From NCBI GenBank assembly GCA_902762355.1, contig CACWNR010000004.1:1-64000 (forward strand): DNA of 64,000 bases, given 5' to 3'. Both the position numbers and the translations under genes were made by a program. Shown here one piece after another: positions 272 through 63,700 of the stretch. Each line of letters starts with the position of its first letter. Positions within the stretch are counted from its first letter, which is position 1. The notes under the pieces were generated by a model that worked only from the letters and a program-made list of their open reading frames with translations, did no database searches and was not told the origin of the DNA. The DNA is from an uncultured Bacteroidales bacterium. Lineage in GTDB: Bacteria; Bacteroidota; Bacteroidia; Bacteroidales; Paludibacteraceae.

Positions 272-774
272 AAGACTATAAACTAACAGAAGACGGGCTA
301 TATGCCTACCAGTATCCGCGTGCATCGGTAACGGCAGATGCCGTACTATTTGCAAATTATGGGGACCCCGCAAATTTTAATTTGTGGGGAGAGCGGAGGC
401 AATGGTCGCACCCACGATTTAGCAGAGCGGTATCGTCTTTGCGACCCATTTGCCGAACGCGACGGGCATTTCCCGGTGGATTCCTCAATATGGATGAGAC
501 GGTGGCTCGTTGTGCTGAACGAGAGCTGGAGGAAGAGACCGGTATCGTGTTGATCGGCATGCAGTTGGTGGGTATCTATTCCGACGTGGAGCGTGATCCG
601 CGTGGACGCGTCATCACAGCGGCTTATGCTGCTATGACCACCATGCCGGAAGCAACTGCCGCAGACGATGCCGCTGCTGCACAATGGTGGCCGCTGAATG
701 CGCTGCCTAAGTTGGCTTTCGACCATGAGACAATTTTACGGGACGCAAAACGAGTAATGAATATTAAAGATTAA
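268..774 (+). CDS. NUDIX hydrolase with a disrupted core; possible pseudogene
   Basis: The Nudix box is intact at residues 71-93 (GGFLNMDET...RELEEETG), preceded by the usual YPRASVTADAVLF strand and followed by a normal C-terminal region ending in a WWPL motif. These enzymes hydrolyse nucleoside diphosphate derivatives using Mg bound by the REXXEE glutamates. Residues ~31-67, where the family has a beta strand like 'LLIxRGxDPFxGxWAFPGG', read as unrelated sequence. A DPFAER stretch that fits the family occurs in another frame at ~448-466, so a frameshift is likely. A palindrome (366-389) sits in the same place. The last residues (NIKD) and the stop come from a heptamer repeat array. It may be inactive. 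Confidence 0.6.
   Translation: MKDYKLTEDGLYAYQYPRASVTADAVLFANYGDPANFNLWGERRQWSHPRFSRAVSSLRPICRTRRAFPGGFLNMDETVARCAERELEEETGIVLIGMQLVGIYSDVERDPRGRVITAAYAAMTTMPEATAADDAAAAQWWPLNALPKLAFDHETILRDAKRVMNIKD
366..389. repeat. Imperfect palindrome inside the NUDIX gene
   Basis: CCCCGCAAAT and ATTTGTGGGG are inverted copies around a short AT centre, with one mismatch. The element replaces part of the conserved NUDIX core and coincides with loss of the family sequence, so it looks like an inserted palindromic element. Confidence 0.6.
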
Positions 775-784
775 AGATTAAAGA
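763..784. repeat. Heptamer array ATTAAAG x3
   Basis: Three tandem 7-bp units ATTAAAG. They encode the last residues and the TAA stop of the NUDIX gene and form the leader directly before the ATG (786) of the YbjQ-family gene. Confidence 0.85.
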
Positions 785-785
785 T

Positions 786-1106
786 ATGATAGTTACCACT
801 ACACCGACCATTGAGGGTCACACCATTAAGGAGTACAAAGGTCTTGTTTCCGGAGAGGTTATCTTCGGAATGAACTTCCTGAAGGACTTTGGCGCGTCGC
901 TTCGTGATTTCTTCGGAGGACGTACCGACAGTTACGAAAAGGCTATGCTCGAAGGACGCGAGACCGCGCAGAAAGAAATGCGCGAGCGCGCCGAGAAACT
1001 GGGCGCCAATGCCATCGTGGGAGTTAGCTTTGGCTATGAGACGATGGGTCAAGCCAACAGTATGATTATGATTTCCATCAGCGGCACAGCCGTTGTGATT
1101 GACTGA
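786..1106 (+). CDS. YbjQ/UPF0145 family protein (DUF74)
   Basis: A 106-residue protein matching the YbjQ (UPF0145, DUF74) family: the N-terminal TPTIEGHTIKEYKGLVSGE, the central DFFGGRTDSYEKAM block, and the C-terminal 'ANAIVGVSFGYE' and SGTAVV strands are all family hallmarks. YbjQ proteins form small pentameric barrels sometimes called heavy-metal-binding domains; their cellular role is not settled. Full length for the family. Start chosen at the ATG just after the ATTAAAG array. The stop overlaps the next start by one base (TGATG), suggesting coupling. Confidence 0.88.
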   Translation: MIVTTTPTIEGHTIKEYKGLVSGEVIFGMNFLKDFGASLRDFFGGRTDSYEKAMLEGRETAQKEMRERAEKLGANAIVGVSFGYETMGQANSMIMISISGTAVVID

Positions 1107-10429: not shown

Positions 10430-11301
10430 ATCAATATTCTTGTCTGTTTGCGGTACTCGGCGTAGTCCGGTTTGTTAGCCAATTGTCGCTTCTCCATGAG
10501 TGGAATACTGATACCAAGGAATAGTGCGGTCATGGCAATCGCGCCACCTACATATAGGTCGATACCATTCAAAGACGCGTACATGATCCAAATGCCCCAC
10601 CAGAATTGTATCTCTCCGAAGTAGTTCGGATGGCGGCCGTGTTTCCATAGACCCACATTGCACACTTTACCTGGATTAGCTGCTCGGAAGTCATGGCTTT
10701 GCTTGTCTGCAATGAGTTGGATAGTAGCCGAAGCAAGGCAAACGATGAAACCGAAGCATAGCACAACTATGCTGATTGGTGATTGGTCATTGGTAATTGG
10801 TGATTCAAACAGTTTCAGTCCGGGTAGCATAGCAGCAAAGACCACGAGCGTCGGCATCATGTTCAAACCGAAGAGATTAATGGTGTGGAAAACCAAGGGA
10901 TGCCGGTCGCGATATTTCGTATAGCGCCAATCCTCATGACCGATACCTTTGAACGTAATCGCCCAGTTGCGCGTAAGACGCCATCCCCAATACCACGAAG
11001 CGATAAGTAGCAGAATGACCGGAACCGACCATACGCCGGTATAGAATGCCCAGAGCAGAAAAGCAATCGGCGGAAAGACGCTCCAATAAGGATCATAGAC
11101 AGACACGTTCTCATAGAGTAAGCCGAATGCCCATACGACAACCGTCGCCAGCACGTCAGCCAGGAATAAACGGATTAAGGGATTAGCGGTTAGGGGATTA
11201 GTAGCTAATCCTTCAAATAGCAGCCAACCGGCTACACCTGCGAGCATATAGATGGCCGCAATCAGCGCCACACTACACCATTTGGAATAATCTCGTTTCA
11301 T
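10426..11301 (-). CDS. DUF1295 membrane protein (steroid 5-alpha-reductase-like)
   Basis: 291 residues, about seven membrane segments. DUF1295 motifs are visible: 'YDPYWSVFPPIAFLLWAFY', 'RLTRNWAITFKGIGHEDWRY', and the NADPH/SAM-binding end 'GLWKHGRHPNYFGEIQFWWG'. The family resembles 3-oxo-5-alpha-steroid 4-dehydrogenases and ICMT. Two heptamer arrays lie inside it: ATNPLTANPLIR near residues ~31-43 and SPITNDQSPIS near ~166-176, both in loops between membrane segments. Start 11301 was chosen because it follows the promoter at 11322-11353; the longer frame overlaps it. Confidence 0.85.
   Translation of the reverse strand: MKRDYSKWCSVALIAAIYMLAGVAGWLLFEGLATNPLTANPLIRLFLADVLATVVVWAFGLLYENVSVYDPYWSVFPPIAFLLWAFYTGVWSVPVILLLIASWYWGWRLTRNWAITFKGIGHEDWRYTKYRDRHPLVFHTINLFGLNMMPTLVVFAAMLPGLKLFESPITNDQSPISIVVLCFGFIVCLASATIQLIADKQSHDFRAANPGKVCNVGLWKHGRHPNYFGEIQFWWGIWIMYASLNGIDLYVGGAIAMTALFLGISIPLMEKRQLANKPDYAEYRKQTRILI
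10773..10805. repeat. Heptamer array ATTGGTN in the DUF1295 gene
   Basis: About five 7-bp units (GATTGGT, GATTGGT, CATTGGT, AATTGGT, GATT). On the coding strand they give SPITNDQSPIS. Confidence 0.85.
11172..11206. repeat. Heptamer-like array GGATTAG in the DUF1295 gene
   Basis: Units GGATTAA, GGGATTA, GCGGTTA, GGGGATTA. On the coding strand they give the ATNPLTANPLIR stretch. Confidence 0.7.
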
Positions 11302-20266: not shown

Positions 20267-21544
20267 TTAGGATTTTCGGCATTCTCCTTTGTTATCAAAA
20301 TATGTGATAGCTTCTGCTACGAGGTAATTGCTTCCTCCGATAAAAATCGCATCTTCCGGTGCAGCCTGTTTGAGCGCGTATGCGATCGCTTGCTGCGGAT
20401 CTTCGATGGCGACTCCTGACTCCTGACTCCTGACTCCTGAATCCTTCCATAACGCCAGCATCTCTTCGCCTGTTCGTGCGCGTTGCGTGTTCGGGCGTGT
20501 AAATATATAATGATAGCGCTCGCCCGCAGGCATCAGTCGCATCACGACCTCCGTGTCTTTGTCGTTCACCATCCCAAACACCAACCATACGTGGTTGGTC
20601 TCCAACTCCTTCAGTTGCCGCGCCACGTACTGCAGTCCGTGACTGTTATGGCCTGTGTCGCAGAGCACGAGCGGTTGTTCACGCAGGATCTCCCATCGTC
20701 CCCGCAGACCCGTCATCGTACACACGTGGGCAAAGCCCTCTCTGATCGCTGAATACTGAATACTGATAGCTCTTAATGCTACAAACGCCGTCTGCAAGTT
20801 ATGCTCCTGGTAGTTGCCTTTTAACTCGCATTCGGGCGCTACCTTCAGGCGTGTGCGGCGCAGGTACTCACATTGGTCAGCAAAATATATATCCGAACCG
20901 CATTCCTGTGCTTTAGCCAAGAACACGTTCATCGTCTGCGGGTGACTCTCGCCGATCACTACCGGCACACCGGGTTTGATGATACCCGCCTTCTCCTTCG
21001 CGATCTGCGTCAGCGTGTTGCCCAAAAACTCCGTATGATCCAATCCTATGTTCGTGATCACGCTCAACACCGGCGTCAGCACATTGGTGCTGTCCAGTCG
21101 TCCGCCAAGCCCTACTTCCACCACGGCGATATCCACGCCCTGCTGCACGAAATACCAGAAGCCCAGCGCCGTCATTGTCTCAAAGAACGAAGGTTGCAGT
21201 GCGTCCAGGAAGTCCTTGTGCTCCGTAACGAACGCCGCCACCGTCTCTTCGGGTATCGGTTGGCCGTTGATACGGATGCGTTCGGTCAAGCTCACCAGAT
21301 GCGGACTGGTGAAGAGACCCACCTTCAGTCCTGCTGCCTGTAACGCCGCCGCGATCAGATGACTCGTCGAACCCTTGCCGTTCGTACCTGCCACATGAAT
21401 CGCCTTCAGCCGCTCGTGGGGATTGCCCACATGCGCCATCAGTCGGAGCGTGTTCTCCAACCCGGGTTTGTATGCACTCGCTCCTACCTCATGAAACGGC
21501 GGCCGCGCGTTATACAAATATGTGACAGCTTCGCTAAAGTTCAT
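20267..21544 (-). CDS. folC: Bifunctional folylpolyglutamate/dihydrofolate synthase
   Basis: 425 residues. The P-loop is VAGTNGKGSTSH (53-60), then LTERIRINGQPI, 'VEVGLGGRLDSTNV', and the C-terminal ligase domain with CDTGHNSHGLQ and 'DAIFIGGSNYLVAEA'. It adds glutamate to dihydropteroate and folates. Two heptamer arrays lie inside: ISIQYSAIR (20748-20768) and SGVRSQESGVA (20411-20444), the latter in the loop before the last strand of the C-terminal domain. The ATG sits at the end of the large 21543-21632 array, which forms its whole leader. Confidence 0.93.
   Translation of the reverse strand: MNFSEAVTYLYNARPPFHEVGASAYKPGLENTLRLMAHVGNPHERLKAIHVAGTNGKGSTSHLIAAALQAAGLKVGLFTSPHLVSLTERIRINGQPIPEETVAAFVTEHKDFLDALQPSFFETMTALGFWYFVQQGVDIAVVEVGLGGRLDSTNVLTPVLSVITNIGLDHTEFLGNTLTQIAKEKAGIIKPGVPVVIGESHPQTMNVFLAKAQECGSDIYFADQCEYLRRTRLKVAPECELKGNYQEHNLQTAFVALRAISIQYSAIREGFAHVCTMTGLRGRWEILREQPLVLCDTGHNSHGLQYVARQLKELETNHVWLVFGMVNDKDTEVVMRLMPAGERYHYIFTRPNTQRARTGEEMLALWKDSGVRSQESGVAIEDPQQAIAYALKQAAPEDAIFIGGSNYLVAEAITYFDNKGECRKS
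20411..20444. repeat. Heptamer array GACTCCT in folC
   Basis: Four exact GACTCCT units and a variant. Coding strand gives SGVRSQESGV. Confidence 0.9.
20748..20768. repeat. Heptamer array CTGAATA in folC
   Basis: CTGAATA, CTGAATA and a shortened third unit CTGATAG, also found (as CTGAATA/CTGAATG) at 38095-38118. Confidence 0.7.
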
Positions 21545-21632
21545 CTATCATCTATCATCTATAATCTATAATCTATAATCTATAATCTATAATCTATAAT
21601 CTATCATCTATAATCTATCATCTATCTTCTAT
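21543..21632. repeat. Large heptamer array ATCTATA/ATCTATC between folC and gmk
   Basis: About 13 tandem 7-bp units fill the whole folC-gmk gap. On the minus strand the array encodes the last codons and TGA of gmk and reaches the ATG of folC. Confidence 0.93.
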
Positions 21633-22169
21633 GATCGCATCCAACTGCTCGAACGCATGCGTCAGGTCGTCATTGACCACCACCTTATCGAACTGCGGCT
21701 GAAAACTCATCTCGTACTCTGCTTTCGCCAACCGCTTCTCGATCATCTCGGGGCTCGTGTCACCGCGCCCTTCCAATCGACGGCGTAACTCCTCGATGGA
21801 CGGCGGGCAGATGAAGATCGAGGTAGCCTTATCGCCCAAGATCCGCTTGAGGTTCAGTCCGCCTTTCACATCAACATCGAACAGCACTTGCCGTCCTGCC
21901 GCTTCGATACGGTCGATCTCCTCCTTGAGTGTACCGTAATAAAGGCCGTCGTACACCTGCTCGTACTCAATAAAATCATCGTTCTCAATGCGTTTTTGGA
22001 ACTCCTCCACGGAGATGAAATAGTACTCCCGGCCATGTACTTCTTCGCCGCGCGGAGCACGCGTCGTACAGGACACGGACAGTTCAAACAGATCCGGATG
22101 CATGGTCAGCAGATGCTTGACCATCGTCGATTTACCACTGCCGCTAGGAGCGCAGAATATATAAATCAT
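21618..22169 (-). CDS. gmk: Guanylate kinase
   Basis: 183 residues. P-loop FCAPSGSGKSTMVKHLL (residues ~5-21), the GMP-binding SCTTRAPRGEEVHGREYYF and EYEQVYDGLYYGT, and the lid 'RLEGRGDTSPEMIEKRL' are all present. Converts GMP and ATP to GDP and ADP. The stop codon and last residues (EDR) come from the ATCTATA array, so the natural C-terminus may have been replaced. The start is embedded in an AT-rich stretch with a repeated AAATCATAAAT. Confidence 0.96.
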   Translation of the reverse strand: MIYIFCAPSGSGKSTMVKHLLTMHPDLFELSVSCTTRAPRGEEVHGREYYFISVEEFQKRIENDDFIEYEQVYDGLYYGTLKEEIDRIEAAGRQVLFDVDVKGGLNLKRILGDKATSIFICPPSIEELRRRLEGRGDTSPEMIEKRLAKAEYEMSFQPQFDKVVVNDDLTHAFEQLDAIIEDR

Positions 22170-22193
22170 AAATCAAAAATTTAAAATCATAAA

Positions 22194-23084
22194 TTAGAGC
22201 ACATTAAGGACTTGTTCCTTAATTTGCTCAAGTATATCTTTCATTTTGACCACGATGATCTGCATCTCGCTTTGGTTCGATTTACTGCCGAGCGTATTGA
22301 TCTCGCGTCCCATCTCCTGGGCGATGAACCCGAGTTTCTTGCCGACACCGCTACCCTCGCCGTCCATCGTTTCACGGAAATACTTGATGTGGTTCGTGAG
22401 GCGCACTTTCTCTTCGGTGATATCGAGTTTCTCGAGGTAGTAGATCATCTCCTGCTCCAGACGGTTGCGATCGGTCTGCGCCTGGGTCTCCGCACTCAGT
22501 TGGGCGAGGTTAGCCTCCAGCCGTTCACGGATCTTCGCGATGCGGCCTTTCTCGAAGGGTTCCACTTGTGCCAGCAGGTCTGCTATACCGTCCAACTTCT
22601 CGGTGAACATCGCCTGCAGTGCCGCTCCTTCTTGGGTACGGAAAGCAATAAAACCATCGATGGCGGCGTTGAGCAGCGCCTGAATCTGCTGCCACTCCTC
22701 GTCCGTCAGATCACCGGCTTCTTCCTGTTGCTTCAGCACGTCCGGGAAACGCATGATCGCGGCCATCACCTCTGCCGGCACCTCACCGAACTGCGCTTTG
22801 TACTGCGCCGCATACGTGTGAACGGCTTGCCAGTTAATCGGACTTACATCATTGAGCGACTTTGTCGCGCTCATTTCATCATTTATCAATAATAAGTCCA
22901 CTTTCCCTCGCTCCAGACGCTGGTTAACGATCGTGCGGATATCCAGTTCTTTCGCCCTTAGACACGGTGCCAAACGAACACTCAAGTCCATCGATTTGGA
23001 GTTGAGCGAACGGATCTCGCAGATCAGTTTATGATTTCGGAAAGTTATCTCGGCCTTCCCGTAGCCCGTCATCGATAATATCAT
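22194..23084 (-). CDS. YicC/YloC family endoribonuclease
   Basis: 296 residues. ILSMTGYGKAEI at the start, 'CEIRSLNSKSMDLSVRLAP', and the C-terminal DUF1732 part 'GSGVGKKLGFIAQEMGREINTLGSKS' identify the YicC family, an RNase that cleaves small or structured RNA. Full length. It is coupled to mnmE upstream (4-bp overlap, ATGA) and lies just before gmk, a common arrangement. Confidence 0.92.
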   Translation of the reverse strand: MILSMTGYGKAEITFRNHKLICEIRSLNSKSMDLSVRLAPCLRAKELDIRTIVNQRLERGKVDLLLINDEMSATKSLNDVSPINWQAVHTYAAQYKAQFGEVPAEVMAAIMRFPDVLKQQEEAGDLTDEEWQQIQALLNAAIDGFIAFRTQEGAALQAMFTEKLDGIADLLAQVEPFEKGRIAKIRERLEANLAQLSAETQAQTDRNRLEQEMIYYLEKLDITEEKVRLTNHIKYFRETMDGEGSGVGKKLGFIAQEMGREINTLGSKSNQSEMQIIVVKMKDILEQIKEQVLNVL

Positions 23085-24439
23085 TTGCCTATACAGAATT
23101 TACTGAAAATATTTGCCAGCACCTCGCTGTTGGTGATCTGTCCGGTCACCTCACCGAGTGCATTCAGACAGTCGTTCAAGTCCATCGACAGCAACTCACC
23201 ACTCAAGCCCTCCTTCAATCCCTCTTGCACGCGCTCTATCGCAGCATGAGCCCGTGTCACCGCCTCGTAATGCCGCGCGTTACTCAGCATCACCGCACTC
23301 GTCTGCATCGTCCCCTTTGCTATCCGCACCAACTCCCGCTTCAGCGGCTCGATATCGCCATTCTTAGCCGAGATTCGAAGCTCTTGACTCTTGACTCTTG
23401 ACTCTTGACTCAAAAGATCCGCTTTGTTAAGCACATTTATCACCGTCCCGCTCACCTGTAGCGCAGCGTCCTGTAACGAAGTGTCCTGTAGCGAAGCGTC
23501 CTGTACGTGCACAACAATTTGTGCGCGTTCCATTGCCCTCCGCGAGCGCTCAATCCCCATGCTCTCTATCGTGTCGTTCGTCTCGCGAAGACCTGCCGTG
23601 TCGATGAGCCGGAACAAGATGCCGTCCAGCACCAACGTGTCCTCCACCGTGTCGCGCGTCGTACCTTGTATATCACTCACGATCGCGCGTTGTTCACCGA
23701 GCAGCGCATTGAGCAACGTCGATTTGCCTACGTTCGGTGCACCGATGATCGCTACCGGTATACCGTTGCGAATCGCATTGCCGGTACGGAAAGAAGCCAT
23801 CAGCGCTGCGAGTTTCGCCTCTATCTCTGCCGCCAAGTCTTTCAACTCCGTGCGGTCGGCGAACTCTAACTCCTCATGGTCGGCAAAGTCCAACTCGAGC
23901 TCAACGAGCGATGTGAAATGCAGCAATCGTTCGCGTAGCGAACCCAACTCCGTGGATACCGAACCCCGCAACTGACTCAACGCCAAGTCTTTCTCCGCCT
24001 TACTCTGCGCAGCGATCAGATCCGCCACCGCCTCCGCTTGCGTCAAGTCCATCTTGCCGTTCAAGAACGCCCGCCGTGTGAACTCACCCGGCTCTGCCGC
24101 CCGGCAACCCGCATCGATGAGCCATTGGACCAAGGTCTGCTGGATATACATGCTCCCGTGACAAGCGATCTCCACCGTGTCCTCGCCCGTGAATGAATGC
24201 GGCGCACGGAACACCGAACACAACACCTCATCCAGCACCTCAGTATCCCGTAACCCGTCACCCGTCACCCGTAACCTTTCAATCCTCCCGTGACGAACGG
24301 TATTCGCCGGCGTATCCGCCAATGCCACACGCCCCTTAAACAGCGTATCCACAATGGCTATACTCTCCTCTCCCGAGACACGGATAACGGCTATTCCACC
24401 CGTCCCGTACGCCGTCGATATCGCACAAATTGTTCCCAT
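23081..24439 (-). CDS. mnmE: tRNA modification GTPase
   Basis: 452 residues. N-terminal TrmE domain (TICAISTAYGTGGIAVIRVSG), central helical domain, G domain with IIGAPNVGKSTLLN (231-244), DTAGLRE (280-286) and NKAD (338-341), and C-terminal CIGK with the essential Cys. With MnmG it modifies U34 of tRNAs. Three repeat-made inserts sit in loops: RVTGDGLRDTE (57-67), a 15-bp repeat giving DASLQDTSLQDAALQ (314-328), and SQESRVKSQELR (344-355) just after the NKAD motif. Promoter at 24456-24487. Confidence 0.96.
   Translation of the reverse strand: MGTICAISTAYGTGGIAVIRVSGEESIAIVDTLFKGRVALADTPANTVRHGRIERLRVTGDGLRDTEVLDEVLCSVFRAPHSFTGEDTVEIACHGSMYIQQTLVQWLIDAGCRAAEPGEFTRRAFLNGKMDLTQAEAVADLIAAQSKAEKDLALSQLRGSVSTELGSLRERLLHFTSLVELELDFADHEELEFADRTELKDLAAEIEAKLAALMASFRTGNAIRNGIPVAIIGAPNVGKSTLLNALLGEQRAIVSDIQGTTRDTVEDTLVLDGILFRLIDTAGLRETNDTIESMGIERSRRAMERAQIVVHVQDASLQDTSLQDAALQVSGTVINVLNKADLLSQESRVKSQELRISAKNGDIEPLKRELVRIAKGTMQTSAVMLSNARHYEAVTRAHAAIERVQEGLKEGLSGELLSMDLNDCLNALGEVTGQITNSEVLANIFSKFCIGK
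23381..23411. repeat. Heptamer array GACTCTT in mnmE
   Basis: Four units of CTCTTGA/GACTCTT. Coding strand gives SQESRVKSQEL, between the NKAD motif and the SAK (G5) motif. Confidence 0.9.
23464..23506. repeat. 15-bp tandem repeat in mnmE
   Basis: Three copies of a 15-bp unit like CGTCCTGTAGCGAAG; coding strand gives ASLQD, TSLQD, AALQ. Confidence 0.85.
24247..24276. repeat. Heptamer array CCCGTAA/CCCGTCA in mnmE
   Basis: CCCGTAA, CCCGTCA, CCCGTCA, CCCGTAA. Coding strand gives LRVTGDGLRD in the N-terminal domain. Confidence 0.9.
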
Positions 24440-24611: not shown

Positions 24612-25640
24612 ATGAAAGAGCTGATAGAAAAAGCGCAACATATTGTGATCTTCACGCACATGGCGCCGGACGGCGACGCGATGGGATCGAGTCTGGCGTT
24701 GTGGCACTGGCTGAAGGGGTTACCGGTTACGGGTTACGGGTTACGGGACGTGACCGTCATCGTGCCGAATGCGTTTCCGGGGTTCTTGGCTTGGATGCCG
24801 GGAGCGGATCAAATACGGATATACGAGAAGGAGAGTGCGGCGTGCGATAAGTTGATTGCCGAAGCGGATCTGTTCATCTGCACGGATTTCAATGACCCCA
24901 AGCGTATCGGGCCGATGGGCGAGAAGATGTTGGCGAACCCGGCAAAGAAGATACTCATCGATCACCACCTCAATCCGGTGGATTTTGCGGACGAGGTGCA
25001 CTCCGATCCGAGCGCCAGTTCATCCTGCGAGATCGTGTATCGGCTGTTAGCCGATGAGGGGTTACAGTTTACGGGTGACGGGTTAACGACCGACATCGCG
25101 ACTTGTATCTACACGGGATTGATGACGGATACGGGGAATTTCAGTTATAACTCGGCGCGGTGCGAGATCTACGAGATCGTAGCGGATCTTGTACGCGCGG
25201 GCGTGGAGAAGGAGAAGGTGTATGACGCGGTGTTCAACCAGTACTCGACCGACCGCGTACGTCTGACGGGGTATGCGCTGTACCGCAAGATGCGTATCTA
25301 TCCGGAGTATCACTTGGCGCTGATCACACTGGATGCCGACGAGTTAGATCGGTTCCATTACCAACCGGGCGACTGCGAGGGGCTGGTGAACATGCCGCTG
25401 CAGATAGCGGATGTATGCTACTCCGTTTGTATGCGTGAGGAGCGTGCCAAACCGGGTACACCCAAATCGCGGATACGCATCTCGTTCCGCTCGCAAGGAG
25501 ACCGACCGGTCAATATATGGGCAAGTGAGGTCTTCCACGGTGGCGGACACATGAACGCCTCCGGAGGAGAGATCTTCGGTACGATCGAGCAAGCGGTCAA
25601 ACTATTTGAACAAACATATTCGAAATATTTAAAGAAATGA
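24612..25640 (+). CDS. DHH/DHHA1 phosphoesterase, NrnA-like oligoribonuclease/pAp phosphatase
   Basis: 342 residues from the ATG at 24612, chosen because it lies downstream of the promoter and begins with the family helix. HMAPDGDAMGSS (16-27), FICTDFNDP (~88-96), DHHLNP (117-122) and TGLMTDTGNF supply the metal-binding acids and histidines; FHGGGHMNASGGE is the DHHA1 substrate-binding motif. It degrades nanoRNA and pAp. Heptamer arrays add LPVTGYGLRD (37-46) between helix and strand of the DHH domain and GLQFTGDGLT (150-159) before the IATCIYTG segment. Confidence 0.92.
   Translation: MKELIEKAQHIVIFTHMAPDGDAMGSSLALWHWLKGLPVTGYGLRDVTVIVPNAFPGFLAWMPGADQIRIYEKESAACDKLIAEADLFICTDFNDPKRIGPMGEKMLANPAKKILIDHHLNPVDFADEVHSDPSASSSCEIVYRLLADEGLQFTGDGLTTDIATCIYTGLMTDTGNFSYNSARCEIYEIVADLVRAGVEKEKVYDAVFNQYSTDRVRLTGYALYRKMRIYPEYHLALITLDADELDRFHYQPGDCEGLVNMPLQIADVCYSVCMREERAKPGTPKSRIRISFRSQGDRPVNIWASEVFHGGGHMNASGGEIFGTIEQAVKLFEQTYSKYLKK
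24718..24747. repeat. Heptamer array GGTTACG in nrnA
   Basis: GGTTACC then three GGTTACG units and GG; codes for PVTGYGLR. Confidence 0.92.
25058..25087. repeat. Second heptamer array in nrnA
   Basis: GGTTACA, GTTTACG, GGTGACG, GGTTAAC; codes for LQFTGDGLT. Confidence 0.85.
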
Positions 25641-29052: not shown

Positions 29053-29086
29053 AGGTTATGGGTTATAGGTTAAAGGTTATGGGGTT
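29043..29086. repeat. Heptamer array AAGGTTA/TGGGTTA at the gldG-LysM gene junction
   Basis: Six units such as AAGGTTA, AAGGTTA, TGGGTTA, TAGGTTA. It supplies the gldG stop and two in-frame ATG codons of the next gene, exactly 21 bp apart. Confidence 0.9.
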
Positions 29087-36752: not shown

Positions 36753-38095
36753 AAAAGTTTTTTATACTGATAGCCTGTCTGGCTACGCTGAGTGCGTATG
36801 CCGAAGAGTTGGCTCCGGATAGCATCGACAACCCGGAAGTCATGGGACAACTGGACAGCATGACCATCGACAGTCTCGTTCTCCTGGATAGTCTGGAACT
36901 GGCCGAAGATACGATCATTCCCGTTCGTCCGTTCTATGAAGCATGGAACGACAGCGACCTGACGGACATCGAGATGCGGGCCTTGGACTGGAGCCTGCGG
37001 TGGCTGGACACGACCGACTGCGTCTCGGTGCATGACACCACTACCCTGCCCGACTCTGTCTATAAGGCGCGTTTACAGGCATTGCCCTGCGTGATTGAGT
37101 TGCCATATAACGAGCGCGTGCGCGCGTTTATATTACGGTACGTGAAGCGCAGCCCCAAACAGGTCGCACGTATGATGCGAATGAGCGAGTACTATTTCCC
37201 GCTGTTCGAAGATGTATTGGGGCATTATGACCTGCCGTACGAACTGAAATACCTGCCGATCATTGAGTCGGCGCTCAATCCGATAGCACGTTCGCATGTC
37301 GGTGCAGCGGGTCTGTGGCAATTCATGCCGGCGACGGGTAAGTTGTTCGGCTTGGAGGTCAACTCGTTGGTGGACGAGCGTATGGATCCGCTCAAATCGA
37401 CCGAAGCAGCTTGTCGCTTCTTGAGTAGCATGTACGCCATCTACCATGACTGGAACCTCGTCATCGCGGCCTATAACTGCGGTGCGGGTAATGTGAACAA
37501 GGCCATCCGCAAAGCCGGTGGTAAGCGCGATTTCTGGTCGATATATCCTTTCCTTCCCCGCGAGACACGTAACTACGTGCCGATCTTCATTGCCGCTAAC
37601 TACGCCATGAACTACGGTCAGGAACACGGCATCTGCAAAGCACCGATAGAGGACAAAGCCATGGTGACGGACACGATCCGTACCAATCAGCGTATGCACC
37701 TCCAACAGATCAGCGATAACTTAGGTATTGAGATGGCCGAACTGAGACGTCTCAACCCGCAGTATTCGCGCGATATCCTGCCGGGCGGAAGCATGTACAC
37801 GCTCTGCCTGCCGACGGATAAAATGGGACCGTTCATCGACATGCAAGACTCGATCATTGCCTATAAGGCAGACAGCCTGATCAACAACCGCCGCGCAGAG
37901 ATCGATTTGGCAAAAGTGACATCTGTCAGCGGTGCGTACCGCGTGAACGGCGTGACGTATTATAAAATCAAGCGAGGCGACACCTTAGGCGGCATTGCAA
38001 AGAAATTCCACTGCACCGTCAAACAACTCAAACAATGGAACGGCTTGAAGAACGATAATATCCGCGAAGGTCAAAAACTGAAGATTTGCAGATAA
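36749..38095 (+). CDS. Membrane-bound lytic murein transglycosylase D-like, with LysM
   Basis: 448 residues from a TTG. Signal peptide; SLT domain with YLPIIESALNPIARSHVGAAG (catalytic Glu172), 'LWQFMPATGK' and 'AAYNCGAGNVNKAI'; two LysM-like repeats near the C-terminus, the last being YYKIKRGDTLGGIAKKFH to GQKLKICR. It cleaves peptidoglycan between MurNAc and GlcNAc. Its long acidic N-terminal stretch (D/S/L-rich, ~20-60) is of unknown use. Confidence 0.92.
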   Translation: MKKFFILIACLATLSAYAEELAPDSIDNPEVMGQLDSMTIDSLVLLDSLELAEDTIIPVRPFYEAWNDSDLTDIEMRALDWSLRWLDTTDCVSVHDTTTLPDSVYKARLQALPCVIELPYNERVRAFILRYVKRSPKQVARMMRMSEYYFPLFEDVLGHYDLPYELKYLPIIESALNPIARSHVGAAGLWQFMPATGKLFGLEVNSLVDERMDPLKSTEAACRFLSSMYAIYHDWNLVIAAYNCGAGNVNKAIRKAGGKRDFWSIYPFLPRETRNYVPIFIAANYAMNYGQEHGICKAPIEDKAMVTDTIRTNQRMHLQQISDNLGIEMAELRRLNPQYSRDILPGGSMYTLCLPTDKMGPFIDMQDSIIAYKADSLINNRRAEIDLAKVTSVSGAYRVNGVTYYKIKRGDTLGGIAKKFHCTVKQLKQWNGLKNDNIREGQKLKICR

Positions 38096-38118
38096 CTGAC
38101 TACTGAATGCTGAATACT
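38095..38118. repeat. Heptamer array CTGAATA/CTGACTA at the start of merR-like gene
   Basis: CTGACTA, CTGAATG, CTGAATA, CTGAA. The ATG of the next gene is inside the second unit. Confidence 0.85.
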
Positions 38119-38439
38119 GAAAAAATATATTATTCGCTGCGCGAGACGGAGACCGAGACCGGTGTGCAGGCTTCTACGTTGCGCTATTGGGAGAAAGAGT
38201 TCGAGCAACTCAACCCGCGCAAGGACGGACACGGCAATCGATACTACACGCTCGAGGATCAGGAACTGATCAAGCGCATCAAGTATATACGCGACGAACT
38301 GAAGATCACGCGTATCGAGGCCATCCGCAAGGAACTCGCCTCCAACGCCAAACGCTCCGACGAACGGCAAGCGGCTCTGGAAATCCTCCAGCGCGTTCGC
38401 GAGGAATTATGTGAAATCCGCAAAATGATTAAGCAATGA
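38107..38439 (+). CDS. MerR-family transcriptional regulator
   Basis: 110 residues. 'YYSLRETETETGVQASTLRYWEKEF' is a MerR helix-turn-helix, followed by the wing (GHGNRYYTLEDQELIKRIKYI) and a short dimerisation helix rich in E and R. It is one of the short MerR proteins common in Bacteroidota. The start codon is given by a heptamer array, so translation initiation lacks a normal leader. It ends 4 bp inside the next gene. Confidence 0.9.
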   Translation: MLNTEKIYYSLRETETETGVQASTLRYWEKEFEQLNPRKDGHGNRYYTLEDQELIKRIKYIRDELKITRIEAIRKELASNAKRSDERQAALEILQRVREELCEIRKMIKQ

Positions 38440-53226: not shown

Positions 53227-53230
53227 AACA

Positions 53231-53258
53231 CTAACCAATTACCAATCACCAATTATCA
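53231..53258. repeat. Heptamer array CCAATTA/CCAATCA between kdsD and kdsC
   Basis: CCAATTA, CCAATCA, CCAATTA, TCAATGA. Gives the TGA of kdsD and lies in the kdsC leader. Confidence 0.85.
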
Positions 53259-54230
53259 ATGATAGAATCGTGTTCCCGGCAGGCAGGAGAACGAGTCAAT
53301 AACACCGCAAACCTTATTACTATTGTCTAGGACAACTAGGGAGTGAATCGAATAATGGTTCATCGTTTCTCCGGCCTCTACGATCTTCGCGTTCTGACTG
53401 ATGGTCTTCGGGTGACGCGCCATGATGTCAGATACCGGTGTGGTAAAGAATTTCTGCCCCAGCTTCTGCATCGCACGACGGATATCGCCATCGGTCACGA
53501 TACCTACCAATCGGTCGTTGTCCACCACGATGCCTACCCCCAACTTGCCGTTCGTCACGATCTCTATAGCCTCACTCATCGGTGCGTTGGGAGCTAAGAA
53601 CGGCAGGTTCTCTTTGACCATCACCTCCTCCACTTGTGCCAAGAGCTTACGTCCGAGGTCTCCTCCCGGATGCAGCATTGCGAAGTCTGAAGGTTGGAAA
53701 TGTGCTGCTTCTATCAACGCACACGCCAAAGCATCGCCTAAGGCCAAGGTCACCGTCGTAGAGGAGGTCGGCACCAGATTCAGCGGATCGGCCTCACGCT
53801 CCACCGAGATGTCCAGATGCACCTCTGCGTACTTCGCCAAGAGCGAAGAGGGGTTACCGGACATGCCGATGATCGGTATATGCTTCGCTTGAATCAGCGG
53901 CAGGAAACGCAACAGCTCTTCGGTGGCACCCGAATAGGAGATTGCCAACACCAGATCGTTCGTGCCTAACATACCCAAGTCTCCATGGTACGCGTCCAGC
54001 GGATTGAGGAAGAAAGCCGGCGTGCCTGTCGAAGCCAGCGTAGCTGCTATCTTCGATCCGATATGACCGGACTTACCGACACCGGTCACCACAATCTTAC
54101 CCTTGCAGTCATGAATCAGTTGTACCGCTCGAACGAAGGACTCGTCCAGACGCGGGATGAGCGATTGAATGGCCTCCGCTTCGCACTGGAGGCATTCGGT
54201 TGCCCGTTGAATAATTGCTTGTGATTGCAT
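53256..54230 (-). CDS. kdsD: D-arabinose-5-phosphate isomerase (KpsF/KdsD)
   Basis: 324 residues. SIS domain (~30-170) with KIVVTGVGKSGHIGSKIAATLASTGTP and a Ser/Thr-rich loop, then two CBS domains (~200-320). It makes arabinose-5-P from ribulose-5-P for KDO. The last codon and TGA sit at the heptamer array. Encoded between ispD and kdsC, and translated as one unit. Confidence 0.93.
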   Translation of the reverse strand: MQSQAIIQRATECLQCEAEAIQSLIPRLDESFVRAVQLIHDCKGKIVVTGVGKSGHIGSKIAATLASTGTPAFFLNPLDAYHGDLGMLGTNDLVLAISYSGATEELLRFLPLIQAKHIPIIGMSGNPSSLLAKYAEVHLDISVEREADPLNLVPTSSTTVTLALGDALACALIEAAHFQPSDFAMLHPGGDLGRKLLAQVEEVMVKENLPFLAPNAPMSEAIEIVTNGKLGVGIVVDNDRLVGIVTDGDIRRAMQKLGQKFFTTPVSDIMARHPKTISQNAKIVEAGETMNHYSIHSLVVLDNSNKVCGVIDSFSCLPGTRFYH

Positions 54231-54234: not shown

Positions 54235-54921
54235 TTAAGTATTTAAATCTTCCTTGTAAGTTATTTTCTTGTTGGCCTCTTCGCCCGTCACGATGAAGAT
54301 GGGTTCTTCCGGCATGTATTTATGCACTATGCCCGCATCGTCCGTGGCAAGGATGTCGCCACTTGCGAGCGCGCGATCGAAGGCCGTTTGGATCGTCTCT
54401 AAGTGGAACGCCTGCGGCGTCTGCGCACGCATGTACTCCGCCCGCGACGGAATACTCTCGACCTGTAACCCCTTCACTTTATAGATCGTATCCGTCACCG
54501 GTACTGCCACCGTCACCGCCTTATGTTCTTGCAGTGCCTCCGCCACATCCGCTAAGATACGTTGACTCACGAACGGCCGTGCCGCATCGTGGAACCACAA
54601 AGTGATTGGTGATTGGTCATTGGTCATTGGTGATTGGAAAGCTTCTATCGCTTTCCATGACGACTCCCAGCGTTCGTGGCCACCCTCGATGATCTTCGCC
54701 ACTTTTTGCCATCCGTTCTGCAGACACATCCGCTGCGCCTCAGCGATCCAGTCCGCATGCATCACGATGCAGATCTTTTCGATACACGGCGCGGCTTCAA
54801 AAGTCTCCACCGAGTGCTCCAAGATCGAACGACCGTCACCCAGAGGCATGAGTTGTTTGGGCGTTTGTCCGCCAACCCTGCTTCCCGTTCCGCCGGCTAA
54901 TATAACAGCAATGTGCTTCAT
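54235..54921 (-). CDS. ispD: 2-C-methyl-D-erythritol 4-phosphate cytidylyltransferase
   Basis: 228 residues from 54921 (the frame's earlier ATG would put the CTP loop 45 residues in and overlap the promoter). 'VILAGGTGSRVGGQTPKQLM' binds CTP, FHDAARPFV is the conserved core motif, and 'RAQTPQAFHLETIQ' the C-terminal substrate segment. A heptamer array codes for SPMTNDQSPIT (97-107) directly before LWFHDAARP, where the family has a short turn. A TarI-type ribitol-5-P enzyme is the alternative, less likely. Confidence 0.85.
   Translation of the reverse strand: MKHIAVILAGGTGSRVGGQTPKQLMPLGDGRSILEHSVETFEAAPCIEKICIVMHADWIAEAQRMCLQNGWQKVAKIIEGGHERWESSWKAIEAFQSPMTNDQSPITLWFHDAARPFVSQRILADVAEALQEHKAVTVAVPVTDTIYKVKGLQVESIPSRAEYMRAQTPQAFHLETIQTAFDRALASGDILATDDAGIVHKYMPEEPIFIVTGEEANKKITYKEDLNT
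54602..54638. repeat. Heptamer array ATTGGTG in ispD
   Basis: ATTGGTG, ATTGGTC, ATTGGTC, ATTGGTG, ATTGG. Coding strand SPMTNDQSPIT; same family as 10773 and 55751. Confidence 0.93.
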
Positions 54922-54948
54922 AAGTCCACTTTTACCCAAATTAGCATG

Positions 54949-54980: not shown

Positions 54981-55014
54981 TAAAAAGGGATATTTTCGTA
55001 ATTTTTCTTAAAAA

Positions 55015-55046
55015 TTTGTTTATATGGGATTTTTTTTGTAATTTTG
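55015..55046 (+). promoter_or_regulatory. Promoter of the heptose/GT operon
   Basis: TTTG (55015-55018), 20 bp, TAATTTTG (55039-55046); spacer TATATGGGATTTTTT as at 11322-11353. Confidence 0.83.
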
Positions 55047-55072
55047 CGCCCAAATTGTAAAATTGCGTTATT

Positions 55073-56224
55073 GTGCGAATAGGAATATTAGGTACGACAT
55101 GGCCTTATAGAGGCGGATTAACAGCGTTCAATGAGCGCCTGGCAAGGCAGTTTGCAGCAGAAGGCAACGAGGTGGAGATCTTCACGTTCACTATGCAATA
55201 CCCGGACTTCTTGTTCCCCGGAAAGACCCAGTATTCGGACACTCCCAAGCCCGCGGATCTATCCATCACCCGCACAATGAACAGCATCAATCCCTTCACT
55301 TGGATCCGTACGGCGCGCGCTATTCGCAAGGCCGGCATCGAACTGCTGGTGATTAAGTTCTGGATTCCGCTGATGGCGCCCTGTTTGGGAACGATCGCAT
55401 GCCTGTGCCGCCGCAAAGGCATTCGCGTGGTCTCCATCCTCGATAATGTCATCCCCCACGAACCGCATTTCTGGGACAAATGGCTCATCCGTTATTTCAT
55501 CGGGAGTGTAGACCGCTTCATCGCGATGTCGGAGAGTGTACAAAAAGACTGCCGCATGTTCTTGCCTGCCCAACGGCATGATTCCGTGGCGTTCAATCCC
55601 CACCCGCTGTACGATAATTTCGGTCAAGCGGTGTCCAAAGCGGAGGCACGTCAGCACTTGAACCTGCCGCAAGACAAAACCATTCTCCTTTTCTTCGGCT
55701 TCATACGCGACTACAAAGGCCTTGACCTGCTGATGAAGGCGTATGCGAAGACAATCACCAATCACCAATCACCAATCACCAATCTACTACTTGTAGTAGC
55801 CGGTGAGTTCTACAACAACGGTGCGCAATATGGAGAACTGGAGAAAGAGTTGGGGCTGAAAGGTACCATCGAATGGCGCACGGATTTCATTCCCGATGAC
55901 CAGGTACGCTATTATTTCTCTGCCGCCGACTTGATTGTACAACCCTATAAAACCGCCACACAAAGCGGTGTCACCCAGATCGCCTACCATTTCGAGCGAC
56001 CGATGTTAGTCACCCGTGTCGGTGGTCTGGCAGAGATCGTTCCGAACGGCAAAGTGGGCTACGTATGCGAAGTCAATGAAGACGACATCGCGCAAGCGAT
56101 CAGTTCATTCGCGCAGATGGACACCAAACAACGAGACGAGTTATTCCTCAAGAATATACAAAAAGAAAAACAAAAATACGCTTGGTCACGCATGACCGAA
56201 AAGATTTATGATAATACGAAGTAA
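55073..56224 (+). CDS. Glycosyltransferase family 4
   Basis: 383 residues from a GTG start 26 bp after the -7 box. N-terminal GT-B half with GILGTTWPYRGGLTAFNERLA, C-terminal half with 'ILLFFGFIRDYKGLDLLMKAY' and 'YYFSAADLIVQPYKTATQSGVTQIA' (the E/x7E-type donor site). A heptamer array inserts TITNHQSPITN (~227-237) between the helix and the VVAGEF strand of the C-terminal half, a non-catalytic loop. First gene of the GDP-heptose operon. Transfers a sugar, likely to LPS or surface glycan. Confidence 0.88.
   Translation: MRIGILGTTWPYRGGLTAFNERLARQFAAEGNEVEIFTFTMQYPDFLFPGKTQYSDTPKPADLSITRTMNSINPFTWIRTARAIRKAGIELLVIKFWIPLMAPCLGTIACLCRRKGIRVVSILDNVIPHEPHFWDKWLIRYFIGSVDRFIAMSESVQKDCRMFLPAQRHDSVAFNPHPLYDNFGQAVSKAEARQHLNLPQDKTILLFFGFIRDYKGLDLLMKAYAKTITNHQSPITNLLLVVAGEFYNNGAQYGELEKELGLKGTIEWRTDFIPDDQVRYYFSAADLIVQPYKTATQSGVTQIAYHFERPMLVTRVGGLAEIVPNGKVGYVCEVNEDDIAQAISSFAQMDTKQRDELFLKNIQKEKQKYAWSRMTEKIYDNTK
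55751..55784. repeat. Heptamer array CAATCAC in the GT4 gene
   Basis: Four to five AATCACC units; codes for TITNHQSPITN. Reverse complement of the ispD family. Confidence 0.93.
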
Positions 56225-60059: not shown

Positions 60060-60091
60060 CTTGCGTATATCAAATAAAATTTGTATCTTTG
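60060..60091 (+). promoter_or_regulatory. Promoter of ruvA-sprA
   Basis: CTTG (60060-60063), 20 bp, TATCTTTG (60084-60091), extended -33 CTTGCGTATATCA. Confidence 0.87.
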
Positions 60092-60110
60092 CAGGCTTTT
60101 TGTATGCATT

Positions 60111-60716
60111 ATGATAGAATATATTAAAGGAATATTAACGGATTTGAACCCGACGGAGGCGGTGATAGAGGCTGCGGGCGTGGGGTACGGAATCGCGATC
60201 ACGTTGCCCTCCTACTCGGCTTTAGTCGGCAGCGAAGACAAAGAAGTGAAGCTCTTCATCACGGAGATCATCCGCGAGGATACGCATGAGGTGTATGGGT
60301 TCGTGACGAAGACAGAGCGGCAGATCTTCGAGTTGCTGATGACGGTGAGCGGTATCGGTGCCGCCACGGCGCGTATGATCCTCTCTGCGTTCACGGCCGA
60401 AGAGTTGCGTATGCTCATCGCGACGGGTAACGCCAAGGCGATGGCGAAGGTGAAGGGTCTGGGAACGAAGACTGCCGAGCGTATCATCGTCGATCTCAAA
60501 GATAAAGCCATCAAGCTCGATCTGGGTGGTGATCCGACGGAGATTCCGATGCTCGATGTAGAAGCGGAGAGCGGTGTCAAGGCCGAAGCGATCAGTGCAC
60601 TGACAATGCTTGGTTTTGCGGCGAACGCCAGCGGTAAGGCCGTGGATAAGATTCTCAAAGCAGACCCGAGTCTCAAGGTAGAAGCCGTTATTCGTGAAGC
60701 ATTAAAAATGCTCTAA
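60111..60716 (+). CDS. ruvA: Holliday junction branch migration protein RuvA
   Basis: 201 residues from 60111, since MIEYIKGILTDLNPTEAVIEAAGVGYGI is the family start. OB fold (1-63), two HhH motifs ('LLMTVSGIGAATARMILSAF', 'KVKGLGTKTAERIIVDLKDK'), a linker, and the C-terminal domain III (~155-201) that contacts RuvB. The sprA gene follows with no gap, a common order in Bacteroidota. Confidence 0.96.
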   Translation: MIEYIKGILTDLNPTEAVIEAAGVGYGIAITLPSYSALVGSEDKEVKLFITEIIREDTHEVYGFVTKTERQIFELLMTVSGIGAATARMILSAFTAEELRMLIATGNAKAMAKVKGLGTKTAERIIVDLKDKAIKLDLGGDPTEIPMLDVEAESGVKAEAISALTMLGFAANASGKAVDKILKADPSLKVEAVIREALKML

Positions 60717-63700
60717 TTGAAAAAACTCCTATACATAGTATTGTTGCTGTGGCTGCCGTTAGGAACGGTAGTTCAGCATACATATGCCCAGAAGACGCTG
60801 AAGGAGCTCGTGGCGGAGGAGAAAGCGCGTAAGGAGGCGGAGAAGAAAGCCAAAGAGGAGGAGAAAGCGCGAGAGGAAGCGGAACGAGCTAAGAGAGAAG
60901 AGCAAAGAGCTAAGAGGGAAGAGCAACGGGCTAAGTTAGAAGCCGGTGAGCTGACGCCCGAGGAGGCGGCGGACTTCGTGACGGAGACAGACAGCTCGTA
61001 TTGGGCGCCGACGCGCGTGAAGCAACTCGGGGCGCAGAACTACGGCGAGTTGACACGCCCGAACAGTTCGCTCGATCTGAATGATCCGGAAAACATCACC
61101 ACCACCGTGGAGTACCAACCCGAGACGGGCACGTACGTCATCCGCACCAAACTCGGCGACACGGACATCACGACGCCGTACATGCTCACGCAGGACGAGT
61201 ACAACCACTACGCCGAGCGCCAGATCATGCATTCGTACTGGCAACAGAAGATTGGCGAAGTGGAGCACAACAACGAGAAGAAGTTCGACATTACGGACAT
61301 GAAGTTCAACATCGGTCCGGCTGATAAAGTGTTCGGTCCGGGTGGTGTCCAACTGAAGATGCAGGGATCGGCCGAGTTGCTGTTCGGTTTCAAGCACCAA
61401 TACATCAACAACCCCTCGCTCACTGTACGCGCGCGCAATAATAACATCTTCGATTTCGACGAGAAGATCCAGGCGAGCATCCAGGGTAAGGTGGGCTCGA
61501 AGCTCAATTTCAACATGAGTTATAACACGGAGGCATCGTTCGCCTTCGACCAGCAGAACCTCAAACTCAACTACAAGGGCGAAGAGGACGATATCATCCA
61601 GTCCCTCGAGGCGGGAAACGTGACGATGGACTTGCCCTCCAACCTCATCCGAGGCAGTCAGGCGCTGTTCGGTATCAAGGCAAACCTCAAATTCGGTAAG
61701 TTGAAGATCCAAGCTTTGGTGAGCCAGCAGAACAGTGAGGCGCAGACGGTGAGCAGTAAGGGCGGTGCGCAGATGACGAAGTTCGATGTGTCCGGCGATA
61801 ACTACGACGAGAACCGACATTTCTTCCTCAGTCATTTCTTCCGCGATTTCTATGAGCGCGCGATGGAGACCGTGCCGTACGTGTCGAGTGGTTTCACGAT
61901 CAATAAGATCGAGGTCTGGATCACAAACAAACGCGGTAACTACGACCAGGCACGTAATATCGTGGCATTCGTCGATCTGGGAGAGAACACGAGCCACACG
62001 CAGTACGCCTGGGGCGGCAGTCCGAGTGCTGCGCCGGATAACAAGACCAATGTACTCTACTCGACCGTGAGTGCGACCGATTTCCGTGATTTCCAGCAGA
62101 CGACCTCGGCGCTCGAAGGGCTGGGCATGGAGAGCGGAACGGACTTCGAGAAAGTCGAGTCCGCGCGCCTGCTGACGAGCGGTGAGTACACGCTCAACAG
62201 TGCGTTGGGTTATATATCGCTCAAGTCGGCGCTCAACCAAGACGAGGTGCTCGCCGTGGCATTCGAATATACGTATAACGGTCAGGTGTATCAGGTGGGT
62301 GAGTTCTCGACGGATAACGTGGCGGACACGGCTACCAGTCTCTCGCCGAAGACCCCGTCTGCGTTGGCATTGAAGATGTTGAAGTCCAGCGCCAACGCGC
62401 CGCGATTTAAGAACCGAGGCACGTGGGACTTGATGATGAAGAACATATACTCTTTGGGGGCGACATCGATCCAGCAGGATAAGTTCGAGCTCTACGTGAC
62501 CTACCGTAATGACTCGGTCGGCACGGATCTGCAGTACCTCGACGAAGGACCGATCAAGGGCAAACAACTGCTGCGCGTGATGAACCTCGACCGCCTCGAC
62601 CAGAAGCATAACATCACCTCCGACGGACGATTCGACTTCATCGAAGGTCTGACGGTGTACTCGAGCGGCGGTAAGATCATCTTCCCGGTGCTGGAGCCTT
62701 TCGGTAGTCACTTGGCAGCGACCTTGGGCAACGACCCTGCGTTGACAGCCAAATACTGCTTCCAAGAACTGTACGACTCGACGCTCGTGGTGGCGCAGGA
62801 GTTGAGCGAGAAGAATAAGTTCCACCTGACCGGTAAGTACAAAGGTACGAACGGCAGCGAGATCCGTCTGGGCGCGATGAACGTGCCGCGCGGATCGGTG
62901 ACCGTCACCGCCGGTGGTGCCACCCTCATCGAGAACGTGGACTACACCGTGGACTACACGATGGGAACGGTGACGATCCTCAACACGTCGATCCTCGAGT
63001 CCGGTACGAACGTTGATGTCAAGTTGGAGAACCAATCAACCTTCTCCATGCAGCGTAAGAGTCTCTTCGGTGCGCACCTCGAGTATGAGTTCAACAAAGA
63101 CCTCGTCATCGGCGGTACGATCATGCACCTGCGCGAGCGTCCGTTGACCACGAAAGTGAACACGGGTTCAGAGCCACTGGCGAACACGATCTGGGGTGTG
63201 AACGGAAGCTGGAAGACCGAACTGCAGTGGCTCACCAATGCCATCGATAAGATCCCTTGGATCACGGCGACCGCTCCTTCTACGTTCCAGATCAGCGCCG
63301 AGTTCGCGCATCTCATCCCGGGTCACACCCGCGATGTGGGCTCCGTCGGAACGGCGTACATAGACGATTTTGAAAACACGACCACCAATATCGACGTGCA
63401 TTATCCGAGTTATTGGTTCTTAGCCTCCACGCCGACGGTCTTCCCGGAATCGAAGATCAACCTCACGCGTGACACAGCGGCGTATAACATCAACCGCGCG
63501 CACATCGGTTGGTTCGCCGTCGACCCTATCTTCGGTTACCCGCAGTCGAACACACCGGCGCACCTGCGCGATGACCTGCGAGCACTCAGTGACCACCGTA
63601 CACGTATCGTCTATCAGGATGAGATCTACCCAAACCGCCAGGAAGCAAGCAACGTGGATACGAAGTTAGCCGTCCTCAACCTGGCGTACTACCCCGAGGA

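Follow-up and report, generated by a model that had tools for sequence, protein, structure and literature searches.

Why bacteria favour tandem repeats with a unit of seven nucleotides is an open question, and it is raised again by the stretch of DNA analysed here, a 64-kb piece of one contig (hereafter the window) from an uncultured member of the Paludibacteraceae. The window belongs to genome G000 (1.94 Mb in 36 contigs, 76% complete). A first-pass annotation had described in it 18 heptanucleotide arrays of unrelated sequence, often inside genes, and had ascribed them to one generating mechanism rather than to chance slippage. What are these arrays, and what makes them? By comparing the window with further parts of G000 and with other genomes of the genus (G-numbers denote genomes, L-numbers congener loci), we came to regard them as what would be the local part of a population of heptanucleotide repeats that extends across the genus. 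This population probably arises by slippage in 7-nt steps combined with copying of units between arrays, and is tolerated where sequence is unconstrained, a reading to which we give a probability of about 0.6.

Period preference in the window, the genome and the genus

Within the window, Tandem Repeats Finder (TRF, score at least 30) returned 16 rows of period 7, against 3, 1 and 5 rows of periods 6, 8 and 9, respectively. There were 10 exact lag-7 runs with 10 or more matches, compared with 0.2 expected from 20 second-order Markov shuffles, and no run of that length was found in the window at periods 6, 8 or 9. The period-7 rows include 14 of the 18 annotated positions (763, 10773, 20411, 20749, 21543, 23381, 24243, 24717, 29043, 38095, 53234, 54602, 55752 and 60886). 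Judged by TRF together with a pattern search, 15 of the 18 stand as arrays of 7-bp or 7+7-bp units, and those at 11172, 25058 and 60887 fall away. At 11172 an 8-bp unit fits in TRF. At 60886, inside a long open reading frame (ORF), TRF scores a 21-bp solution above the 7-bp one (86 vs 40), and this array is probably a different thing from the heptamer arrays. Two weaker arrays, at 22161 and 29092, were absent from the first list. The region 60812-60942 carries 21- and 24-bp repeats (TRF) in ORF 60717-63998, which probably reflect repetition in the protein and have nothing to do with the heptamer arrays.

The same preference was found outside the window. In 20 further stretches of G000 (390 kb, score 12), we counted 54 arrays of period 7 and 0, 4 and 1 of periods 6, 8 and 9; these stretches were partly picked around GGTTAC matches, which weights that family up. 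Period 7 also exceeded periods 6, 8 and 9 in each of eight sampled congeners (G034, G005, G002, G033, G029, G025, G031 and G013), including the array-poor G002 with 9 period-7 arrays in 200 kb and 5 of period 8. Across 80 congener loci (1,467,503 bp, score threshold 12), periods 6, 7, 8, 9, 10, 11, 12, 13 and 15 were represented by 2, 165, 35, 7, 4, 36, 7, 1 and 26 arrays, respectively, and one second-order Markov copy of these loci gave no array at any of those periods save one at period 10. Seven is the commonest length among units of 5-11 nt in these loci (165 arrays vs 36 at period 11 and 35 at period 8), and many of the period-15 arrays look like 7+8 compounds. Beyond the genus, 20 stretches, one per other Bacteroidales family (261,701 bp, 8 stretches below 10 kb), held 2 period-7 arrays at score 12, rising to 5 when the threshold was lowered to 10.

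The refuting outcome that the first-pass annotation had named, no genome-wide excess of period 7, did not occur in the samples analysed. Its Bacteroidota host also fits, the nearest mnmE loci being those of Bacteroidales or Paludibacteraceae metagenome-assembled genomes (MAGs). The uniform period has to be softened: 7 is strongly preferred, but 8, 11 and 15 (often 7+8) are raised too in the genus. A strong preference for 7 bp that runs through the genus speaks for a common generating process, although slippage, which had been contrasted with it, is probably part of that process.

Turnover between sister species and units shared within genomes

The genus is rich in species (at least 60 congener species, many of their mnmE loci coming from the gut of ruminants, namely goat, sheep, cattle, buffalo, deer and yak, and one from a pig), so that arrays could be followed at orthologous sites. 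We compared 12 pairs of sister species with about 89-96% identity, in which 54 of 82 arrays were located in the sister and 28 were dropped. Arrays of equal length and at least 80% identity were classed as same, and those below 80% identity as replaced, a class that takes in some partial changes. Counted reciprocally, the 54 located arrays comprised 26 that were the same, 12 changed by multiples of 7 bp, 14 replaced as a block and 2 with other indels. Counted per site, the 35 distinct sites comprised 14, 8, 12 and 1 (other length), respectively, with letter-identical arrays at 6 of the 35. By comparison, 115 of 123 located class-matched control segments without arrays were the same, 4 were replaced, 3 had other indels and 1 had changed by a multiple of 7 bp (22 more were unlocatable). 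Where the unit was kept but the length changed, the sisters differed by multiples of 7 bp at 8 of 9 distinct sites (12 of 14 reciprocally), and it is because of these changes that we infer slippage as the resizing step.

Replacements could be sharply bounded. In L092/L110, an AATCACM array lies opposite an AATTNTC array with near-identical flanks and abrupt borders; in L087/L089, an array faces an array of a different unit with sharp edges; and in L060/L057, an array stands opposite a palindromic element, again with abrupt borders. At other sites (12289 in L071/L080 and 12202 in L043/L044) the array extends a shorter array of the sister.

Then, we compared the units themselves. In a first set of five genomes (G000, G034, G005, G002 and G033), identical units, allowing for rotation and strand and taking arrays in different stretches, were found in 184 of 5504 pairs within genomes vs 185 of 19113 between genomes, and none of 300 permutations of the stretches reached the within-genome value. 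This roughly threefold excess was replicated in a second set (G029, G025, G031 and G013, sampled at contig starts), with 19 of 651 pairs vs 22 of 2304 and 2 of 300 permutations. It was clear in G000, G033 and G034; in G002, 1 of 63 pairs was identical, a small sample. Therefore, the claim that the unit sequences are unrelated holds only in so far as several families exist, since families recur within a genome and genomes tend to reuse units. Because of these shared repertoires together with block replacement, copying between arrays seems to us the best account of how units spread.

Individual families are patchy in distribution. Matches to GGTTACN number 50 in G000, 51 in G005 and 70 in G034. 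Of 36 congeners, 7 have 10 or more matches and 19 have none, and there is no match in any of 24 genomes of other families. The reversed control of this pattern search (CATTGG...) resembles the ATTGGTN family and so provides no valid null for GGTTAC. In G000, 15 of 48 GGTTACN loci have a neighbour within 1.5 kb, vs 3.4 expected if uniform, and units are identical in 12 of 58 array pairs lying 100-3000 bp apart vs 2 of 137 farther pairs in the same stretch. Over the first genome set, same-unit neighbours at 100-3000 bp numbered 23 of 174 vs 7.2 expected, the effect being strong in G000 and G005.

Units are AT-rich and contain more CAA/TTG, TCA/TGA and AATT, but less CTA, ATA and GTA, than letter-shuffled units do. 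As this enrichment was measured against shuffled units only and not against the genomic background, we do not claim a genus-wide core motif. Some families combine constant and variable positions: among 63 ATTGGTN units of G000, 21 carry a base other than the most frequent one at position 7 vs 0, 1 and 2 at positions 1-3, and 5 of the 7 positions of the G033 family AATTCAC are invariant in 35 units.

Arrays in genes, spacers and protein loops

The arrays of the window are listed in the table below. That many lie inside genes, as first proposed, is borne out by ten of them (10773, 20411, 20749, 23381, 24243, 24717, 27635, 28666, 54602 and 55752), eight of which were classed as coding by our gene caller and two (27635 and 28666) by coordinates. 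The ORFs concerned have Pfam matches to MnmE, Mur ligase, DHH, GldG-like ABC_transp_aux, IspD, glycosyltransferase or DUF1295. In a larger set of 453 period-7 arrays, 234 were inside ORFs, 138 at edges and 81 fully intergenic, by crude calls (longest ORF, at least 80 aa) under which ORFs cover 93% of bases, certainly an overestimate. Spacer arrays were if anything rarest in divergent spacers (14 in 45 kb vs 62 in 116 kb of other spacers). The coding arrays of G000 are strictly oriented, GGT[TG]AC being sense in 6 of 6 and ATTGGT antisense in 12 of 12. As read from the sequence, the opposite orientation would bring stop codons for most unit variants, and the strand bias therefore looks like a filter rather than a function.

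Table. Tandem arrays of the window, with repeat unit, coordinates and gene context (strand of the ORF in brackets)
Unit and copy number	Position	Context
ATTAAAG x3.3	763..785	Spans stop codon of ORF 268-774, ends just before start of ORF 786-1106
TGATTGG x4.7 (ATTGGTN family)	10773..10805	Within DUF1295 match of ORF 10426-11352 (-)
GACTCCT x5	20411..20445	Within Mur_ligase_C match of ORF 20267-21544 (-)
CTGAATA x2.6	20749..20766	ORF 20267-21544 (-), between its two Pfam matches
ATCTATM x13.4	21541..21636	In and around spacer of ORFs 20267-21544 and 21618-22169
ATAAATC x4.9	22161..22194	Weak, 77% matches
CTCTTGA x4.4	23381..23411	mnmE (-), second length-variable stretch (about residues 343-353)
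GTAACCC x4.9 (sense strand GGTNACN)	24243..24276	mnmE (-), codes LRVTGDGLR insert of loop 1
GGGTTAC x4.4	24717..24747	DHH-family ORF 24354-25640 (+)
GGGTTACAGTTTACGGGTGAC	25059..25079	DHH-family ORF 24354-25640 (+); weak, not in TRF list, found by pattern search with 2 mismatches only
GGGTTACAGGTGAC x2.2 (14-bp unit GGGTTAC+AGGTGAC)	27635..27665	ABC_transp_aux (GldG-like) ORF 27373-29052 (+), variable loop A
GGGTTACAGGTGAC 14-mer x2	28666..28693	GldG-like ORF 27373-29052 (+), loop C
TAAAGGT x5.3	29043..29079	Junction of ORFs 27373-29052 and 29058-30452
ACTGAAT x3.9	38095..38121	Junction of ORFs 36749-38095 and 38107-38439
ACCAATT x3.9 (ATTGGTN family, minus)	53234..53260	Junction of ORFs 52735-53238 and 53256-54230
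GTGATTG x5.1 (ATTGGTN)	54602..54637	Within IspD ORF 54235-55053 (-)
CAATCAC x4.7 (ATTGGTN, minus)	55752..55784	Within glycosyltransferase ORF 55073-56224 (+)

In two genes the coding arrays could be placed in variable loops of the protein. For mnmE, 80 congener genes gave 41 arrays in 33 species (score 9; the species counts include sister species and are not independent), with 20, 15, 5 and 1 arrays of periods 7, 8, 11 and 15, respectively. All 41 are confined to nt 160-202 (8 arrays) or nt 909-1070 (33 arrays), which are the two length-variable stretches of our protein alignment A1, and reading frames stay open through the arrays, with no stops, at 80 of 80 loci. These open frames are also the observation that bears on phase-variation contingency loci, in which the length of an array turns a gene on or off among the cells of a strain. 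The window species and the near relative L039 have an LRVTGDGLR insert in loop 1, encoded by a GGTNACN array, which none of the other 28 proteins in alignment A1 has. In most species loop 1 is a short R-x-G-E-like stretch, and in others its inserts derive from AAAGGTT, GAAAGGT, GGCGAGA, AATCGAT or 8-mers; in L076 the loop carries APQPPEGG, the peptide of a palindromic element. The GldG-like protein has variable inserts at three loops (18 species aligned from 30 loci fetched), and the array at 28666..28693 codes a 6-residue insert at loop C found only in G000 among the 18.

Further observations concern the same genes and their repeats. At 23455-23505, a 15-bp array (CCTGTAGCGAAGCGT x3.4) codes SLQDTSLQDA, which falls into the variable stretch of MnmE that also holds the heptamer array at 23381-23411. 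Short, partly palindromic dispersed elements (APQPPEGG, PPSPEGKG, RSKTKDRDEVAQRP) fill protein loops that hold heptamer arrays in other species; we found them at L057 (13695-13746), L076 (1562, 1828 and 2605), L264 and loop B of the GldG-like protein of the window species (PPSPEGKG), some being multicopy within one stretch. In G028 (C30 and C21; contamination 7%), a full mnmE match is accompanied by another in two pieces, gapped at the second variable stretch. For the DHH-family ORF 24354-25640, most ortholog matches start at query residue 45-90 or later, which suggests that the listed start, 24354, is probably too early. Arrays of period 11 (e.g. TACGTATGATA; L104, L105, L102, L115, L097, L110 and others) match those of period 8 in abundance in the congener loci (36 vs 35). 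Unlike period-7 arrays, they are mostly intergenic (59 of 85, by the same crude calls).

Origin of the arrays and relation to known repeats

In the reading that we prefer, arrays would arise and change length in 7-nt steps, through replication slippage or small tandem duplications. Units or short blocks would then be copied between arrays, most simply by template switching in replication or repair, and this copying would spread and partially homogenise them within a genome. Arrays would persist where sequence is unconstrained, that is in spacers, at gene junctions and in length-tolerant loops of ordinary enzymes, and in orientations that keep the frame free of stops. Most likely, no individual array serves a function tied to its site.

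The closest alternative is slippage alone, with independent local seeds that drift and a 7-nt preference that stems from the polymerase, a general proposal made by Mrazek and colleagues in 2007 according to the account in PMC4679880. The 7-bp steps at 8 of the 9 changed but unreplaced sites, together with the arrays that lengthen a shorter array of the sister in L071/L080 and L043/L044, speak for it. However, it predicts neither the sharing of units within genomes above the level seen between species, nor the replacement of arrays at 12 of 35 sites, nor the patchiness of GGTTACN, and we hold it to be possible but doubtful. A bolder reading, that an active, enzyme-driven process independent of reverse transcriptase copies heptamer blocks between arrays and writes them genome-wide into tolerant sites, including loops of essential proteins, seems to us unlikely.

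Several points weigh against slippage combined with copying. The array was unchanged at 14 of 35 sister sites, in G005 units are not clearly shared in excess between stretches (8 of 483 pairs), and the copying step is deduced, no donor-recipient pair having been traced. Same-unit clustering within 3 kb was not significant in G034 and G033, and it was not replicated in the second genome set (1 of 36 near pairs vs 1.6 expected). Also, within-array variation was limited to one or two adjacent unit positions in 91 of 148 events vs a shuffle mean of 72 (the concentration test), which free slippage does not predict and which might mean sequence-specific recognition; in the replication set this restriction was weaker and not significant (19 of 34, mean 17, P 0.17). 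We therefore dropped both near-neighbour clustering and position-restricted variation as general laws, although both may be real in some genomes. Finally, slippage and copying leave the preference for 7, and less so for 8 and 11, over 6, 9 and 10 unexplained.

Could the arrays instead offer DNA- or RNA-binding proteins several binding sites in a row, a role suggested in PMC4679880 for TAACTGA repeats upstream of Beggiatoaceae genes? The constant core and variable positions of ATTGGTN in G000 and AATTCAC in G033 agree with this, as did the concentration test in the first five genomes, but that test failed replication. Moreover, about half of the arrays (234 of 453 by the crude caller) lie inside ORFs in stretches that vary between species, they turn over quickly, several families coexist per genome, and spacer arrays are scarcest, if anything, in divergent spacers, where promoters would lie. 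Altogether, a binding role appears improbable. Writing by an RNA-templated, telomerase-like reverse transcriptase, or carriage by a tiny mobile element, would account for units shared within a genome, and GGTTACN resembles the telomere repeat of fission yeast. RVT_1, the single model used, is present in some congeners, e.g. G002 and G029, but gave no match in the array-richest genomes G000, G005, G033 and G034 (G000 being 76% and G033 and G034 about 97% complete), and on this ground reverse-transcriptase writing was rejected. No shared flanks or target duplications stood out beside arrays in nine sister alignments, which were not put to a systematic test, and we consider this whole class of explanation highly improbable. 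Loss of mismatch repair was rejected as well. Both mutS and mutL are over the cut-off in G000, and each has a match in 23 of 23 genomes at least 90% complete and at most 5% contaminated (mutL was missed in G011, 92% complete and 6% contaminated, and in three less complete genomes); the repeats are thus not explained by such a loss. As the genomes are MAGs, assembly artefact had to be considered too, yet arrays are kept at orthologous sites of separately assembled species (14 of 35, 6 of them letter-identical), the 80 mnmE genes have no stops, arrays included, and most arrays span 20-60 bp, less than the usual short reads; we regard an artefact as barely credible.

Heptanucleotide repeats are a known class, of which the arrays described here are an extreme, largely intragenic form. 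Long simple sequence repeats (LSSRs) have units of 5-11 nt, heptanucleotides being the commonest (Mrazek et al. 2007 as described in PMC4679880), and resemble our arrays as short tandem arrays with a preferred 7-nt unit, a scattered phylogeny and slippage as the proposed origin. Here too, 7-nt arrays exceed chance, 7 is the commonest unit length and lengths vary by whole units between sister species. In contrast to LSSRs, our arrays are genus-wide with turnover between sisters, about half lie in ORFs though 7 is not a multiple of 3, and arrays of one genome have units in common more often than arrays of different genomes. TAACTGA direct repeats, known from Beggiatoaceae, Cyanobacteria and some Bacteroidetes including Paludibacter (PMC4679880), are likewise heptamer arrays that are patchy among relatives, with indels mostly in 7-nt steps, there between two close Cyanothece strains. 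However, they have a single motif, mostly just upstream of start codons in Maribeggiatoa, whereas our arrays have many motifs and are largely intragenic: only 81 of the 453 are fully intergenic by the crude calls, and of the 228 arrays counted in the 80 loci, one has TAACTGA as its unit (canonical rotation AACTGAT).

The GGGANTN and GGGGA(T/C)T families of Xanthomonas and Nostoc (PMC4692102) resemble ours in that some positions of the unit are conserved and others vary, that a genome holds many loci and that prominent arrays lie at different genes in two related species, but they are G-rich with G-quadruplex potential and over-represented intergenically, whereas ours are mostly AT-rich and of many families. 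Cyanobacterial tandem heptanucleotides (short tandemly repeated repetitive sequences, STRR; Calothrix, PMC4692102) also come in several families per genome, in another phylum. As stated in 2015, detailed literature on heptameric repeats was lacking (PMC4692102), and the accessible part of Mrazek and Huang 2014 (PMC4060949) leaves heptamers unmentioned. Open-access literature searches returned nothing on tandem repeats in Paludibacteraceae, nor on heptamer repeats in Bacteroidales. As far as these searches show, the genus-wide scale in gut Bacteroidales, the presence in loops of housekeeping genes and the measured turnover with sharing within genomes are new. Rickettsia palindromic elements are in-frame inserts in ordinary proteins; palindromic inserts are seen here too, in the protein loops that also take up arrays, although the Rickettsia palindromes are longer and do not form 7-bp arrays.

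The genus thus offers a natural experiment on heptamer preference: its many species and close sister pairs allow arrays to be followed from one orthologous site to the next while they are resized, swapped and replaced. Here a repeat with a unit that is not a multiple of three supplies new sequence to the loops of housekeeping enzymes, MnmE among them, and this is relevant to the origin of variable protein loops. If blocks were indeed copied by the enzyme-driven process considered above, the arrays of each species would undergo concerted evolution, keeping a constant core of about 5 nt and leaving one or two positions free, and new sequence for protein loops would be generated rapidly.

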